Positions 31,115-64,000 of a stretch of DNA of 64,000 nucleotides are shown here, piece after piece (within the stretch, counting starts at the first letter, position 1; each line of letters starts with the position of its first letter). This DNA is from an uncultured Rhodospirillaceae bacterium (lineage in GTDB: Bacteria; Pseudomonadota; Alphaproteobacteria; Rhodospirillales; Casp-alpha2): the NCBI GenBank assembly GCA_913030825.1, contig CAJWCU010000008.1:1-64000 (forward strand). Direction: 5' to 3'. The notes beneath the pieces are model-generated. The model saw only the letters and a program-made list of their open reading frames with translations, was not told the DNA's origin and ran no database searches. Made by a program: the position numbers and the translations under genes.

Positions 31115-31149
31115 TTGACACTCGGGCCATTTTTTAGAACAATTATAAA
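31115..31149 (+). promoter_or_regulatory. Candidate cfa promoter (TTGACA at 31115-31120, AACAAT at 31138-31143) overlapping an Irr/ICE-like palindrome TTTAGAACAATTATAAA (31133-31149)
   Basis: Direct reading; 13 of 14 specified positions match TTTAGAA-N3-TTCTAAA (consensus recalled from memory). Confidence 0.45.
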
Positions 31150-31227: not shown

Positions 31228-32472
31228 ATGCTTTTTGCGCGGCTGCTACGCCATATCGTTTCCGTCGGCCGGCTTCGGGTCATCGACGCCGGCGGTAAGG
31301 AGCACGTCATTTCCGGTTCGCCCGGCAACAGCCTGACGATCCGTCTGCACGACCCTGCCCTGCATTGGAAACTGTTCTTCAACCCCGGCCTCTACCTGGG
31401 CGAAGCCTATATGAACGGTACGCTCACGGTTGAAGACGGCAACATCTACGACTTCCTCCAATTCGCGACCTCGAACATGCAGGACGCCGGCGAACATCCG
31501 GTTATGGCCTGGGTTGCCGCCGCCGATTCCCTGTTTCGCCGGATACAGCAGTACAATCCGGCGAAACGGTCGCGGCAGAACGTGGCGCACCATTACGACC
31601 TTCGCCGCGAGTTGTACGAATTGTTCCTGGACAAGGACCGGCAGTATTCCTGCGCCTATTTCGAGCGGCCGGAAGACGACCTGGAAACGGCGCAACTGAA
31701 CAAGAAGCGCCACCTCGCGGCCAAGCTTCGGATCGAGCCGGGGATGAAAGTCCTCGATATCGGCTGCGGCTGGGGAGGCCTCGGACTTTATCTGGCGGGC
31801 GAATTGGGAGCCCAAGTGACGGGCCTGACCCTTTCGACCGAACAATTGGCCGTCGCCCGCGAACGGGCCGAGCAAGCCGGTCTGGCGGACAAGGTATCGT
31901 TCGAACTTCGCGATTACCGCGACCAGCAAGGCACCTTCGACCGCATCGTCTCCGTCGGCATGTTCGAACACGTCGGCATCGCGCACTACGACGAATATTT
32001 CTCGACCGTCAAAAACCTGCTCACCGAGGACGGGATCGCCTTGATCCATACCATCGGGCGATCTGAAGTGCCGCGCTCGACCAATCCCTGGATCCGCAAA
32101 TATATCTTCCCGGGCGGCTACATCCCCGCCCTGTCCGAAGTCATGCGCAGCGTCGAACAAACCAGCCTGGTCACCACGGACGTCGAGGTGTTGCGCCTGC
32201 ATTACGCGAAAACGCTGGAACATTGGCGCGACCGCTTCCAAAAGCGCCGCGACGACGCCAAGGCGATCTACGACGAACGGTTCTGCCGAATGTGGGAATT
32301 CTACCTGGCCGCCAGCGAATGCTCCTTCCGCTACATGGACAACGTGGTCTTTCAGGTCCAACTGACCCGCCGCCAGGACGCCGTGCCAATTACCCGCGAC
32401 TACATCACCGAATGGGAGAAACGGGCGAATCGGCGGGACAAAGTATCGACCAGCGACGGCGCCGCGGCCTGA
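31228..32472 (+). CDS. cfa: Cyclopropane-fatty-acyl-phospholipid synthase family methyltransferase
   Basis: NVAHHYDLRRELYELFLDKDRQYSCAYFERPEDDLETAQLNKKRHLAAKL...VLDIGCGWGGLGLYLA...SVGMFEHVG. Confidence 0.93.
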   Translation: MLFARLLRHIVSVGRLRVIDAGGKEHVISGSPGNSLTIRLHDPALHWKLFFNPGLYLGEAYMNGTLTVEDGNIYDFLQFATSNMQDAGEHPVMAWVAAADSLFRRIQQYNPAKRSRQNVAHHYDLRRELYELFLDKDRQYSCAYFERPEDDLETAQLNKKRHLAAKLRIEPGMKVLDIGCGWGGLGLYLAGELGAQVTGLTLSTEQLAVARERAEQAGLADKVSFELRDYRDQQGTFDRIVSVGMFEHVGIAHYDEYFSTVKNLLTEDGIALIHTIGRSEVPRSTNPWIRKYIFPGGYIPALSEVMRSVEQTSLVTTDVEVLRLHYAKTLEHWRDRFQKRRDDAKAIYDERFCRMWEFYLAASECSFRYMDNVVFQVQLTRRQDAVPITRDYITEWEKRANRRDKVSTSDGAAA

Positions 32473-59760: not shown

Positions 59761-59820
59761 CCCGACCCACTTAACCCATCTGCCGGACGTTCAAGGTCCG
59801 CAATCTGATTGGCCAAGGCC

Positions 59821-61266
59821 ATGCCCTTCACCATCGCCATCATCGGCCGCCCCAACGTCGGCAAGTCGACCATGTTCAACCGTCTGGTCGGCCGCCGCCT
59901 GGCGATCGTCGACGACACCCCCGGCGTGACCCGCGACCGCCGCGAAGGCGAAGGCCGCATCGGGCCGATGAAATTCCGCGTGATCGACACGGCGGGACTA
60001 GAAGACGTCACCGACGACAGCCTGGAAGCCCGCATGCGGGCCCAGACGGAACGCGCCCTGGACGAAGCCGACGTCGCCTTGATGGTGATCGACGCGCGGG
60101 CCGGGGTCACGCCGCTGGACCAATATTTCGTGCAATGGCTGCGCTCGCGCGGTACGCCGGCGATCCTGATCGCCAACAAATGCGAGGGCCGCGCCAGTCA
60201 GGGCGGTCTGATGGAAGCCTATTCCCTGGGCCTGGACGAGCCGGTGGTGTTTTCCGCCGAACACGGCCTCGGCCTGTCGGACCTGCACGACCGCCTGCAG
60301 CCCTATGCCGACGCCGTCGCCGCCGACGGCGCCGAGGACCTGATCGACGACGACGAATTCGCCGACCTGGCCGACGATGGCCTGGGCGACGTGGACGCGC
60401 TGGAATTGAACGAAGACGGCGAGTTGGAGATCGAAGACCTGCCCGAGCCAAAGGCCCTGCAACTGGCCATCGTCGGGCGCCCCAACGTCGGCAAGTCGAC
60501 GATGATCAACCGCCTGTTGGGCGAGGACCGCATGCTGACCGGCCCCGAAGCCGGGATCACCCGCGACGCGATCTCGGTCACCTGGAACCATGACGGCCGC
60601 GATTACCGGCTGATCGATACGGCGGGACTGCGACGCAAGGCGCGGGTCACGGAAAAGCTGGAATACCTCTCGACCCGCGACACCATGCGGGCCGTGCGCT
60701 TCGCCCATGTCGTGGTGTTGGTGCTGGACGCCGACGCGGTCCTGGAACGCCAGGACCTGACCATCGCGCGCCGGGTCATCGACGAAGGCCGGGCCCTGAT
60801 CATCGCCGTCAACAAATGGGATGCGGCCAAAGACCGGAACGAAACCATCGAACGGCTGAGCGACCGGTTGCAGACCAGCCTGCCGCAGGTACGGGGCATT
60901 CCGGTGATCACCCTGTCGGCGCTGACCGGCAAGGGCATGGACAAGCTGCTGCCCACGGTCAATGAAGCCTACGACACCTGGAACGCGCGGATCGGCACCG
61001 GCGACCTCAACCGCTGGCTCGGCGCCATGCAGGAAGCCCACCCGCCCCCCATCGGCAAGGGCGGCAAGCGCATCCGCCTGCGTTATGCGACGCAGGCCAA
61101 GACGCGGCCGCCGACTTTCGTGATTTTCTGTACGCGCGCCGTCGAATTGCCGGACAGCTATACCCGCTATCTGGTCAACGGCCTGCGTGACGATTTCGGG
61201 TTGGACGGTGTGCCGATCCGCCTGATCTACCGCAAGAGCGATAATCCATATGCCGACCGGCGCTAG
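59821..61266 (+). CDS. der: Ribosome-associated GTPase Der/EngA
   Basis: Two G domains: [18 protein letters not shown] and [18 protein letters not shown], plus KH-like C-terminus; in-frame TTG at 59809 is an alternative start. Confidence 0.97.
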
Positions 61267-61315: not shown

Positions 61316-61624
61316 TTATTCGTCGTGATCGTGGCCGTGATGGCCGGTGATCGGGCCTTCCTTGAACAGGTTTTCGCGGAGTTCCTTGTCGAAGGCCGGC
61401 ATCTTGCGCCGGATCCATTCCAGAACCATGGCCGCGTGTTCGATCTCTTCGTCCCGGTTGTGCTCGAGGATCGCCTTGAGTTCCGGGTCCTTGGTGGCAT
61501 CGACCCGCTGCTGATACCAGTCCACGGCCTCAAGCTCTTCCATCAGAGAGACGATGGCACGGTGCTTGTCCATCGTGTCTTCCGACAGTTTATCCAACGG
61601 TTCGTGGAAACCTTCGCTCGTCAT
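61316..61624 (-). CDS. Encapsulated-ferritin (EncFtn)-like ferroxidase
   Basis: 102 aa: HEPLDKLSEDTMDKHRAIVSLMEELEAVDWYQQRVDATKDPELKAILEHNRDEEIEHAAMVLEWIRRKMPAFDKELRENLFKEGPITGHHGHDHDE, matching the recalled Rhodospirillum rubrum EncFtn pattern (MEELEAVDWY...AHNRDEEKEHAAMTLEW...LFTEGPIT). Confidence 0.9.
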   Translation of the reverse strand: MTSEGFHEPLDKLSEDTMDKHRAIVSLMEELEAVDWYQQRVDATKDPELKAILEHNRDEEIEHAAMVLEWIRRKMPAFDKELRENLFKEGPITGHHGHDHDE

Positions 61625-61638
61625 GGGAACTCCTTAAT

Positions 61639-61651
61639 ACAGATATTCTGT
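61639..61651. promoter_or_regulatory. 13-bp perfect inverted repeat ACAGA-TAT-TCTGT adjacent to the EncFtn-like gene RBS
   Basis: Direct reading; AAGGAG RBS lies between it and the ATG. Confidence 0.4.
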
Positions 61652-61697: not shown

Positions 61698-61710
61698 CGG
61701 GATAATCCCG
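61698..61710. promoter_or_regulatory. 13-bp perfect inverted repeat CGGGAT-A-ATCCCG in the gap between the 97-aa gene and the EncFtn-like gene
   Basis: Direct reading. Confidence 0.35.
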
Positions 61711-61724
61711 GCCCATCCGCCCTG

Positions 61725-62018
61725 TCATCCCCCACCCCGCTGAAACGCCCGGTCGAAACGCGCCAGGGCCGCCGCGCGATCACGATCCGAGTATCCCGAA
61801 AAAGCCAGGGTCACGTCCATGATTTCGATCTCCATCAGGGCGATTTTCCGGCGGCGTTCCGACCCTAGGGTGATTTCCAAACGCCGTCCCTCCGCGGCCA
61901 ACACAATGCCCGACGGCGTCCGCTCGTAGGCGTCGGAACCCAACGCCTTCTCGATGCCCCGGTAAAAACCGGCCCGCGTCAGGGCCATTTCTTTTTCGAT
62001 GACGACCGGATCGGTCAC
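61725..62018 (-). CDS. Small protein of unknown function associated with an AOR/MoaD cluster, C-terminal GGG
   Basis: GTG start at 62018; VTDPVVIEKEMALTRAGFYRGIEKALGSDAYERTPSGIVLAAEGRRLEITLGSERRRKIALMEIEIMDVTLAFSGYSDRDRAAALARFDRAFQRGGG; 10 nt after the MoaD-like gene. Confidence 0.75.
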   Translation of the reverse strand: MTDPVVIEKEMALTRAGFYRGIEKALGSDAYERTPSGIVLAAEGRRLEITLGSERRRKIALMEIEIMDVTLAFSGYSDRDRAAALARFDRAFQRGGG

Positions 62019-62028
62019 GCCCGACCCC

Positions 62029-62280
62029 TCACCCACCCGCGACCGGCGGCCACATGGCGAGTGCGTCGCCGTCTTCGAACGTCGCCGTGTGGCGCGCCGA
62101 AGGCTCGACATAGATGCCGTTCAGCAGGACCAGATGGCACATCTTTTCCGGCAGACCCAAGGTCGCGATGACCTGGGCGGGCGTGGCGTCGTCGGCGACC
62201 TCGATCTCCGCCTCGTTGCCCTTGGATCCCGCCGGCAGGTGATCGGCAAGCGAGGCGTAGAGTTTGACTGTGATCTTCAT
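62029..62280 (-). CDS. MoaD/ThiS-family ubiquitin-like sulfur carrier
   Basis: 83 aa beta-grasp-like MKITVKLYASLADHLP...LPEKMCHLVLLNGIYVEPSARHTATFEDGDALAMWPPVAGG ending in GG. Confidence 0.9.
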   Translation of the reverse strand: MKITVKLYASLADHLPAGSKGNEAEIEVADDATPAQVIATLGLPEKMCHLVLLNGIYVEPSARHTATFEDGDALAMWPPVAGG

Positions 62281-62313: not shown

Positions 62314-63561
62314 TCAGGCATAGGCATGGGCGACGTAGGCTTCCATGATGCGGTGGGGGTCTTCCATCAACTTGGCCTTCCACGGGCCCAGATGGGTGCG
62401 GTTCTGGATCAGCCCGCGCAGCACACCCATGTGGTCCGTGCGGCCCAACGACAGGGCACCGACCAGCACGTCGTCCTTGAAATTCAGGCGCAGGTATTTG
62501 AAATGGCCGGCGTCCAGCACCTCGGCCATTTCCGTGCCCGGGCCGCCTTCCCAATCGCCGAAGGAGGTCGAAATCAGACCCGCCGTATCCAGCACGTTCA
62601 TCTGCAGCGACCCCTGATAGGGCGTGACCCGCCCCGCCATATTGAGCGCCGCGATCCGGCCGTGCTCGGTCGAAGTCGGCTGGATCGCGTGAACGTTGAA
62701 GCCACCGCCGAAGTCCGGTCCCTGGGCGCAGTCACCGGCCGCATAGACGCCGGGGACGGAAGTTTCCAGGAACTCGTTGATGCGGATGCCCTGTTCGATC
62801 TCGATGCCGGTACCTTCCAGGAATTCGATGTTGGAAGTCACGCCCGCCGCGACGACGACGAGATGCGCCGCGATCTGATCGCCGGTATCCAGGTCGACGA
62901 AAAGCTTGTCCTCGTCGTCGGCCTCGCGGCGTTCGACCTTGGTCACCTTGGTGCCCGTCTCGACATTGATGCCTTTCTGAACGCACCAGTCCTTGATCAA
63001 GCCACCGGCGGTGGCGTCCATCATGCGCGGCACCATGCGGTCCAGCGCTTCGACCACGGTCAACTTAACGCCCCGTTCGACCAGGGCTTCCAGAATGATG
63101 CAGCCGATGAAGCCCGCCCCCATCAGCACGACATGCGCACCTTCATGGGCCAGTTTCTCGATGGCGCGGCAATCGTCGAGCGTCCAGCAGTGATGCACGC
63201 CCGGCAGGTCGAGCCCCGGCACGGGCGGCTTGATGGGCCTGGCCCCGGTGGCGATCAGCAGCTTGTCGTAGGGCTGCTCCCCACCGCCCTCGAGCAGCAC
63301 CTTGCGGCCCGCAACATCCAGGCCCTTGGCGATGCCTTGGCGATAGGTAATGCCGAGAGCCTCGTAATGCCCGGCTTGTTTACGCAAATGCGTGCCGCCA
63401 TGGTCGATGATGCCGGTCAGGACATAGGGGATCGCCATGCGGGAATAAGGCGGATCGGCTTCCCCGCCCAGCAACACGATCTCCGCGCCCTTGTCCGTCT
63501 TGGCAAGCGTTTCCGCGGCGACGACGCCCGCAGGCCCCGCGCCGATGATGACATAGGTCAT
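62314..63561 (-). CDS. FAD/NAD(P)-dependent oxidoreductase
   Basis: YVIIGAGPAGVVAAETLAK (FAD), VVLMGAGFIGCIILEALVERGVKLTVVEALDRMVPRMMD (NAD), VPGVYAAGDCAQ. Confidence 0.93.
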   Translation of the reverse strand: MTYVIIGAGPAGVVAAETLAKTDKGAEIVLLGGEADPPYSRMAIPYVLTGIIDHGGTHLRKQAGHYEALGITYRQGIAKGLDVAGRKVLLEGGGEQPYDKLLIATGARPIKPPVPGLDLPGVHHCWTLDDCRAIEKLAHEGAHVVLMGAGFIGCIILEALVERGVKLTVVEALDRMVPRMMDATAGGLIKDWCVQKGINVETGTKVTKVERREADDEDKLFVDLDTGDQIAAHLVVVAAGVTSNIEFLEGTGIEIEQGIRINEFLETSVPGVYAAGDCAQGPDFGGGFNVHAIQPTSTEHGRIAALNMAGRVTPYQGSLQMNVLDTAGLISTSFGDWEGGPGTEMAEVLDAGHFKYLRLNFKDDVLVGALSLGRTDHMGVLRGLIQNRTHLGPWKAKLMEDPHRIMEAYVAHAYA

Positions 63562-63583: not shown

Positions 63584-64000
63584 TCACAGAGTCAGCCGGC
63601 TGACCGTTTCGTTGGTCGGCACCCCGTCCTTGGACCAGCCGCGCAGTTCGTAATATTCCGGCAGCATCTTGTCCAAACCGTTGGTCAGGCCTTTGGCCGG
63701 TCCGGTCTTGGCCGCGTCCTTGACCAAGCGCTTGGGCAGGTTGTCGTCCTTGCCCGTGAACCCGGCGGCCAGGTTGAACCGACGTTCCAGGTTCCACACC
63801 CTCTCACCCAGTTCCAACAGATTCTCGACCGACCAGTCGCCTTCGCAGGCGGCGTCGATCTGTGGTGCGATGTCTTCCAGCGTCCAGGCGAAGGTCGTGA
63901 AGACGCAAATGCCCGCACTGTCGACCGCCGCTGTCGCGTCCTGAAACGCCTTGACCAGACCGGCCTTGCCGTCGGTGACCAGCGGATCGGTCTTTTCCGG
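63584..64000 (-). CDS. Aldehyde:ferredoxin oxidoreductase (tungsten AOR family), C-terminal part; 5' end outside window
   Basis: Frame is open to base 64000: GKAGLVKAFQDATAAVDSAGICVFTTFAWTLEDIAPQ...SVENLLELGERVWNLERRFNLAAGFTGKDDNLPKRL...LPEYYELRGWSKDGVPTNETVSRLTL, the characteristic AOR C-terminal domain. Confidence 0.92.
   Translation of the reverse strand, partial: PEKTDPLVTDGKAGLVKAFQDATAAVDSAGICVFTTFAWTLEDIAPQIDAACEGDWSVENLLELGERVWNLERRFNLAAGFTGKDDNLPKRLVKDAAKTGPAKGLTNGLDKMLPEYYELRGWSKDGVPTNETVSRLTL

Follow-up and report, generated by a model that had tools for sequence, protein, structure and literature searches.

EncFtn proteins have been described almost solely as encapsulin cargo that needs the shell. 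The gene at positions 61316-61624 (minus strand) of the window, by which we mean the whole 64,000-nucleotide stretch of DNA analyzed here, raises the question of what such a protein could do on its own. An earlier note on this DNA had read it as an EncFtn with no encapsulin partner and with a His/Asp-rich tail in place of a cargo peptide, and had suggested a free-standing protein in a new role.

The EncFtn gene and its product

Direct reading of the gene gives an ATG start codon and a product of 102 amino acids ending in ...LFKEGPITGHHGHDHDE. A ribosome-binding site, AAGGAG on the complement of 61630-61635, precedes it and is also found in congeners. The protein, of which the genome search found one copy, matched the Pfam EncFtn-like family PF22277 (E 6.8e-43, 144.8 bits, cut-off 27) and TIGR04535 (138.5 bits, cut-off 125). 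An AlphaFold2 model built with 32 relatives (mean pLDDT 88.8) has helices at residues 15-43, 47-74 and 76-85, so that the predicted fold consists of two long antiparallel helices and a short third one. As shown by Foldseek, the nearest solved structures are the Rhodospirillum rubrum EncFtn (5da5; TM-score 0.83, 67% identity) and the decameric NE0167 of Nitrosomonas europaea (3k6c; 68% identity). By analogy with these two structures the window EncFtn is probably an annular decamer. The profile matches and the fold bear out its identification as an EncFtn, and the model adopts the two-helix fold on which that identification had been made to depend. A classical ferritin, bacterioferritin or Dps was rejected: PF00210 scored 15 bits, below its cut-off of 24.5, and the monomer has two long helices, not a four-helix bundle.

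The ferroxidase ligands of the R. rubrum protein are Glu32, Glu62, His65 and Tyr39 (PMC5012862). In the alignment their counterparts are E30, E60, H63 and Y37 of the window EncFtn, while the entry site (R. rubrum Glu31 and Glu34) corresponds to E29 and E32 and the outer site (His57, Glu61 and Glu64) to H55, E59 and E62. Residues of all three sites are invariant, or almost so, in 149 distinct EncFtns (129 short and 20 peptide-bearing). Judged by these residues, the ferroxidase centre is intact and unchanged from that of the shell-associated forms. The ligands proposed previously (E30, E32, E60, E62, H63, W36 and Y37) mix the three sites and omit E29, H55 and E59.

Proteins of this kind are already known. 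A 'Non-EncFtn' group without an encapsulin sequence was distinguished by He et al. (2016; PMC5012862). A 2024 review describes an s-FLP class that was first classed as non-encapsulated; it left their encapsulation undecided and put forward LFTDKPIAHE as a putative targeting peptide (PMC11202242). The window EncFtn belongs to this s-FLP/Non-EncFtn kind, the type of which is NE0167. Both proteins are of about 95-102 amino acids, lack a cargo peptide and share the EncFtn fold and the ferroxidase residues. They differ in the tail, which is of the short PIAHE type in NE0167 and is the longer and richer GHHGHDHDE in the window, and in that the absence of a shell was assumed there and is shown genomically here. 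The R. rubrum EncFtn (Rru_A0973) likewise shares its core and its di-iron and entry-site residues with the window protein, but it has a long linker with the peptide SLGIGSLK, both of which are missing from the window EncFtn. Rru_A0973 is encapsulin cargo, whereas the window genome gave no family-1 encapsulin, adjacent or distant. Since a shell-less, peptide-less group had been named before and the ferroxidase site is unchanged, 'new role' was too strong a term. No biochemistry or published function for any s-FLP was found in the literature searched.

Shell, targeting peptide and tail

The genome containing the window is 95.9% complete, and its search with the family-1 encapsulin profile PF04454 gave no match, while control genomes were matched. 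The family-2 (SrpI-like) profile PF19307 gave zero matches in the window genome and zero in the control genomes too. Eight genomes of the genus were searched, that of the window included; seven carry the EncFtn gene, and the six congeners among these gave no family-1 encapsulin. G386 and G390, both single-contig assemblies that are 98-99% complete, have the EncFtn gene and no encapsulin. The lack of an encapsulin partner thus holds for PF04454 in the window genome and in the two single-contig congeners, and the encapsulin elsewhere in the genome that had been kept in reserve was not found by the genome-wide search for family 1.

The same question was asked of the class. Full-length EncFtns were present in 63 of 385 genomes and encapsulins in 13, and the C-termini of all 63 EncFtns were read. 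In 13 of the 63 the C-terminus carries a targeting peptide (GSLGIGSL[KR] or GLTIGRMK in most cases), and coordinates placed the shell gene directly beside the EncFtn gene in all 13. Among the 50 genomes with a short-tailed EncFtn none had a match to PF04454 (Fisher p 9.6e-14 for the association of peptide and shell, a value that overstates independence as the genomes are related). A second sample comprised 66 genomes picked by similarity to the query, with some species present twice (e.g. L003 and G391). Five of these had peptide and shell, 59 had a short EncFtn and no shell, and two (G453 and G471) had a short EncFtn and a shell. In both of the latter the gene immediately preceding the shell (L169, L170) encodes another EncFtn, one with GSLGIGSL.

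Because peptide and shell go together, even in G453 and G471 with their tagged copies, the short form is a protein of its own that is not encapsulated. The strict coupling (13 of 13 against 0 of 50) also argues against a hidden targeting peptide in s-FLPs. A hidden family-1 encapsulin was rejected on the search of the window's own genome, the 385 class genomes and the 66 further ones. With the peptide absent and a shell in none of 50, a free-standing EncFtn is well supported, for this genome and for short EncFtns generally.

Two further observations concern the distribution of these genes. A Myxococcota metagenome-assembled genome (MAG), G477, has two encapsulins (contigs C79 and C23; L172 and L173), neither of them beside its peptide-bearing EncFtn (L060). 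MAGs labelled Acholeplasmataceae and Izemoplasmatales (L024/L171 and L080) carry EncFtns 69-73% identical to the window protein; that of L024 ends in SGKLK and lies next to an encapsulin, that of L080 is short and shell-less, and close relatives thus differ in state. Mis-binning of these EncFtn contigs is possible.

The tail of the window protein, GHHGHDHDE (61319-61345, minus strand), follows shortly after GPIT, as had been noted and as is seen in the translation. It extends 15 residues past the last core Phe and contains no cargo-loading peptide motif, and its residues 97-102 are predicted to be disordered (pLDDT below 50). Codon comparison indicated that congeners keep GHHG[HD]DH despite synonymous codon changes, and the tail is therefore a real coding feature. 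Short EncFtns generally extend 8-22 residues past the last core Phe, compared with 26-56 in peptide-bearing ones. The final ten residues include a His in 87 of the 104 distinct short tails and in 0 of the 20 peptide-bearing tails. At least two His occur in 40 of the 104 and at least three in 22; many short tails have a single His (e.g. IAHK, IADH) and some have none.

A tree computed from only the EncFtn cores (87 columns, with weak resolution) requires at least 18 changes for tails that have at least two His, and at least seven each for the peptide state and for membership of the rubrerythrin operon described below. When His tails were compared with the peptide in a pair test that corrected for the tree, the supported branches offered few independent pairs. 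Tails holding two or more His are dispersed across the tree, and the clade of GHHGHDHDE-like tails that had been envisaged is absent, being ruled out by the 18 or more changes. As the His-rich tails need that many changes, the His/Asp tail marks no clade; short EncFtns commonly have such a feature, of which this is a richer form.

Gene neighbourhood and promoter

The neighbours proved to be those reported earlier. Downstream lies the convergent der gene for the EngA GTPase (59809-61266, plus strand; MMR_HSR1 and KH_dom-like of EngA). Upstream, all on the minus strand, are a genus-conserved 128-codon ORF without a Pfam or NCBIfam match (61725-62111), which overlaps a gene for a MoaD/ThiS-like protein (62029-62280; PF02597, PF14451), then a FAD/NAD oxidoreductase gene (62314-63561; PF07992) and the gene for an aldehyde ferredoxin oxidoreductase (AOR; 63584-64000), which runs past the window end and was assigned through AFOR_N and AFOR_C on protein P0001 from L165. 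The order AOR, FAD oxidoreductase, MoaD, 128-aa ORF, s-FLP and convergent der is conserved in the genus. In the loci compared outside the genus the EncFtn gene is not beside AOR. AOR linkage was accordingly discarded as a functional clue, the order being conserved within the genus only.

A different linkage was found elsewhere. In 39 of 164 loci the EncFtn gene is flanked by RFO and DUF3501 within a co-directional rubrerythrin - RFO - DUF3501 cluster, the gaps between genes amounting to tens of bases where they were measured; none of these 39 EncFtns bears a peptide. The loci belong to Thioalkalivibrio, Acidiferrobacteraceae, other Gammaproteobacteria, one MAG labelled Alphaproteobacteria and one unassigned MAG (L030:3993-7309, L043, L062, L066, L074 and 34 more), and in two of them a DUF302 gene is next. 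The three-gene cluster is known as the aerobic-type rubrerythrin operon, connected with oxidative stress (PMC5114695), to which these related loci add the short EncFtn as its fourth gene. Searched by term, that paper gave no mention of an encapsulin or a ferritin-like protein in the cluster. The window genome has its rubrerythrin - RFO - DUF3501 cluster on contig 25, without EncFtn, the EncFtn gene being on contig 8 and thus not inside the operon. The gene adjoining the contig 25 cluster is irr (IrrA in NCBIfam, 221.6 bits, cut-off 150).

Alignment of congener promoters (L002, L004, L115, L116) revealed TTAGAANNNTTCTAA upstream of the EncFtn start codon, a motif which we take to be an Irr box or ICE. 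A genome-wide pattern search of G386, G388 and G390 (~3.9 Mb) found one perfect box per genome, in each case 87 bp upstream of the EncFtn gene, and the box in the L004 promoter is perfect too. Boxes with one mismatch precede the catalase/peroxidase gene katG in the genus (L197, L199) and, in the window genome, a Dps-like gene and the irr-adjacent rubrerythrin operon. Since the total of one-mismatch boxes was barely above that of a reversed control, placement and perfect matches were used as evidence, and not the number. The Irr (ICE) iron/peroxide regulon of Alphaproteobacteria includes bfr, mbfA and rubrerythrin-like genes (PMC3413700).

In contrast to the congeners, the window species and its sister species L003 have no TTAGAANNNTTCTAA in the EncFtn promoter. 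The window has another palindrome, CGGGATAATCCCG (61698-61710), at the position of the Irr box of the congeners, with symmetric changes in both arms as seen in the aligned promoters. A 13-bp palindrome, ACAGATATTCTGT (61639-61651), lies in the leader near the ribosome-binding site; L003 has ACAGANNNTCTGT, of the same form, and in other species this palindrome is imperfect. CGGGATAATCCCG and ACAGATATTCTGT are possibly a changed operator.

Some other sites and genes were recorded. An Irr-box-like TTAGAACAATTATAA is located at 31134-31148 of the window and recurs in each of the four other genomes of the genus that were searched; the ORF downstream of it (31228-32472) may encode a cyclopropane-fatty-acid synthase. 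The window genome (G000) has two adjacent genes of the bacterioferritin family (contig 10:50569-51454; L174) and a Dps-like gene (contig 4:58987-59570; L175), the latter with its Irr-box-like site about 80 bp upstream.

Possible function of the unencapsulated form

On balance we favour the view that the window EncFtn is a free, cytosolic, shell-less stress ferroxidase. Its observed basis is the fold, the ligands, the missing peptide and shell, and the coupling of peptide to shell, together with the operon and the Irr box in relatives. The two-helix protein would form dimers that build a symmetric di-iron ferroxidase centre, and the dimers would probably assemble into a ring of ten subunits whose rim carries the ten disordered His/Asp tails. 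In the cell the protein would bind Fe2+ and oxidize it with O2 or H2O2, thereby clearing Fenton-active iron as well as some of the peroxide. Mineral cannot be stored in an open ring, so the ferric product would need sinks in the cytosol, for which the two bacterioferritins and the Dps of the window genome are the probable candidates. The tail would probably keep metal near the rim.

The rubrerythrin operon and the Irr box favour a role as a ferroxidase or in peroxide defence. These functional leads come from relatives, because in the window species the EncFtn gene lies outside the operon and has no Irr box. What a stress ferroxidase explains least well is where the ferric iron goes: in vitro, and deprived of its shell, the R. 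rubrum EncFtn is slower and precipitates iron (PMC5012862), and a free ferroxidase would for that reason need a hypothetical iron acceptor.

This problem would be avoided by the main rival explanation, which we consider rather unlikely. According to it EncFtn is mainly a peroxide reductase similar to rubrerythrin, in which iron is a cofactor and the di-iron site is re-reduced by an Fe-S oxidoreductase such as RFO. The missing iron store would then be immaterial, and both the compact gene cluster that EncFtn shares with rubrerythrin and RFO in 39 loci and the Irr box common to EncFtn, katG and rubrerythrin in the genus would fit. However, shell-associated EncFtns with identical residues are ferroxidases (PMC5012862), the entry-site glutamates that channel iron are kept, and the window genome links no reductase partner to EncFtn.

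The abundance of His in short tails could alternatively be explained by a metal chaperone or buffer, its His/Asp tails binding Fe, Zn, Ni or Cu for delivery to, for instance, AOR. The tail and the AOR neighbourhood are indeed both kept in the genus, yet single-His tails are frequent, some tails have no His, tails vary freely over the tree with 18 changes, and outside the genus the gene is away from AOR. We regard this explanation as improbable.

Encapsulation in a shell encoded elsewhere, with the tail serving as an unconventional targeting peptide, is already largely refuted and very improbable. It could draw on the proposal made for LFTDKPIAHE (PMC11202242), on the 95.9% completeness of the window genome and on a family-2 search that matched neither window nor control genomes; against it stand the 50 short-EncFtn class genomes and two single-contig congeners without PF04454, and the separate tagged EncFtn adjoining the shell in both genomes that have a shell and a short form. 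That the gene is what remains of an encapsulin system whose shell and peptide were lost is equally hard to credit: the peptide state does change at least seven times on the tree, but catalytic residues and tail are conserved through many synonymous changes between species and the gene is kept in seven of eight genus genomes.

Beyond the stress ferroxidase that we favour for the window protein, a wider reading of the family can be offered tentatively, as a possibility that we doubt more than we believe. EncFtn may primarily be a free, cytosolic, peroxide-linked di-iron enzyme, the fourth component of the aerobic rubrerythrin system, from which the encapsulin-bound form would be derived, being gained or lost repeatedly together with the peptide.

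To what was known of s-FLPs the present data add genome-wide evidence that the short form occurs without a shell, the link to the rubrerythrin operon and the Irr box of congeners; a search of the open-access literature found no papers on these three points. The free form is the commoner one, as 50 of the 63 EncFtn genomes of the class have a peptide-less EncFtn and no encapsulin. With the rubrerythrin operon and the Irr box as leads, the function of EncFtn can be put directly to the test.
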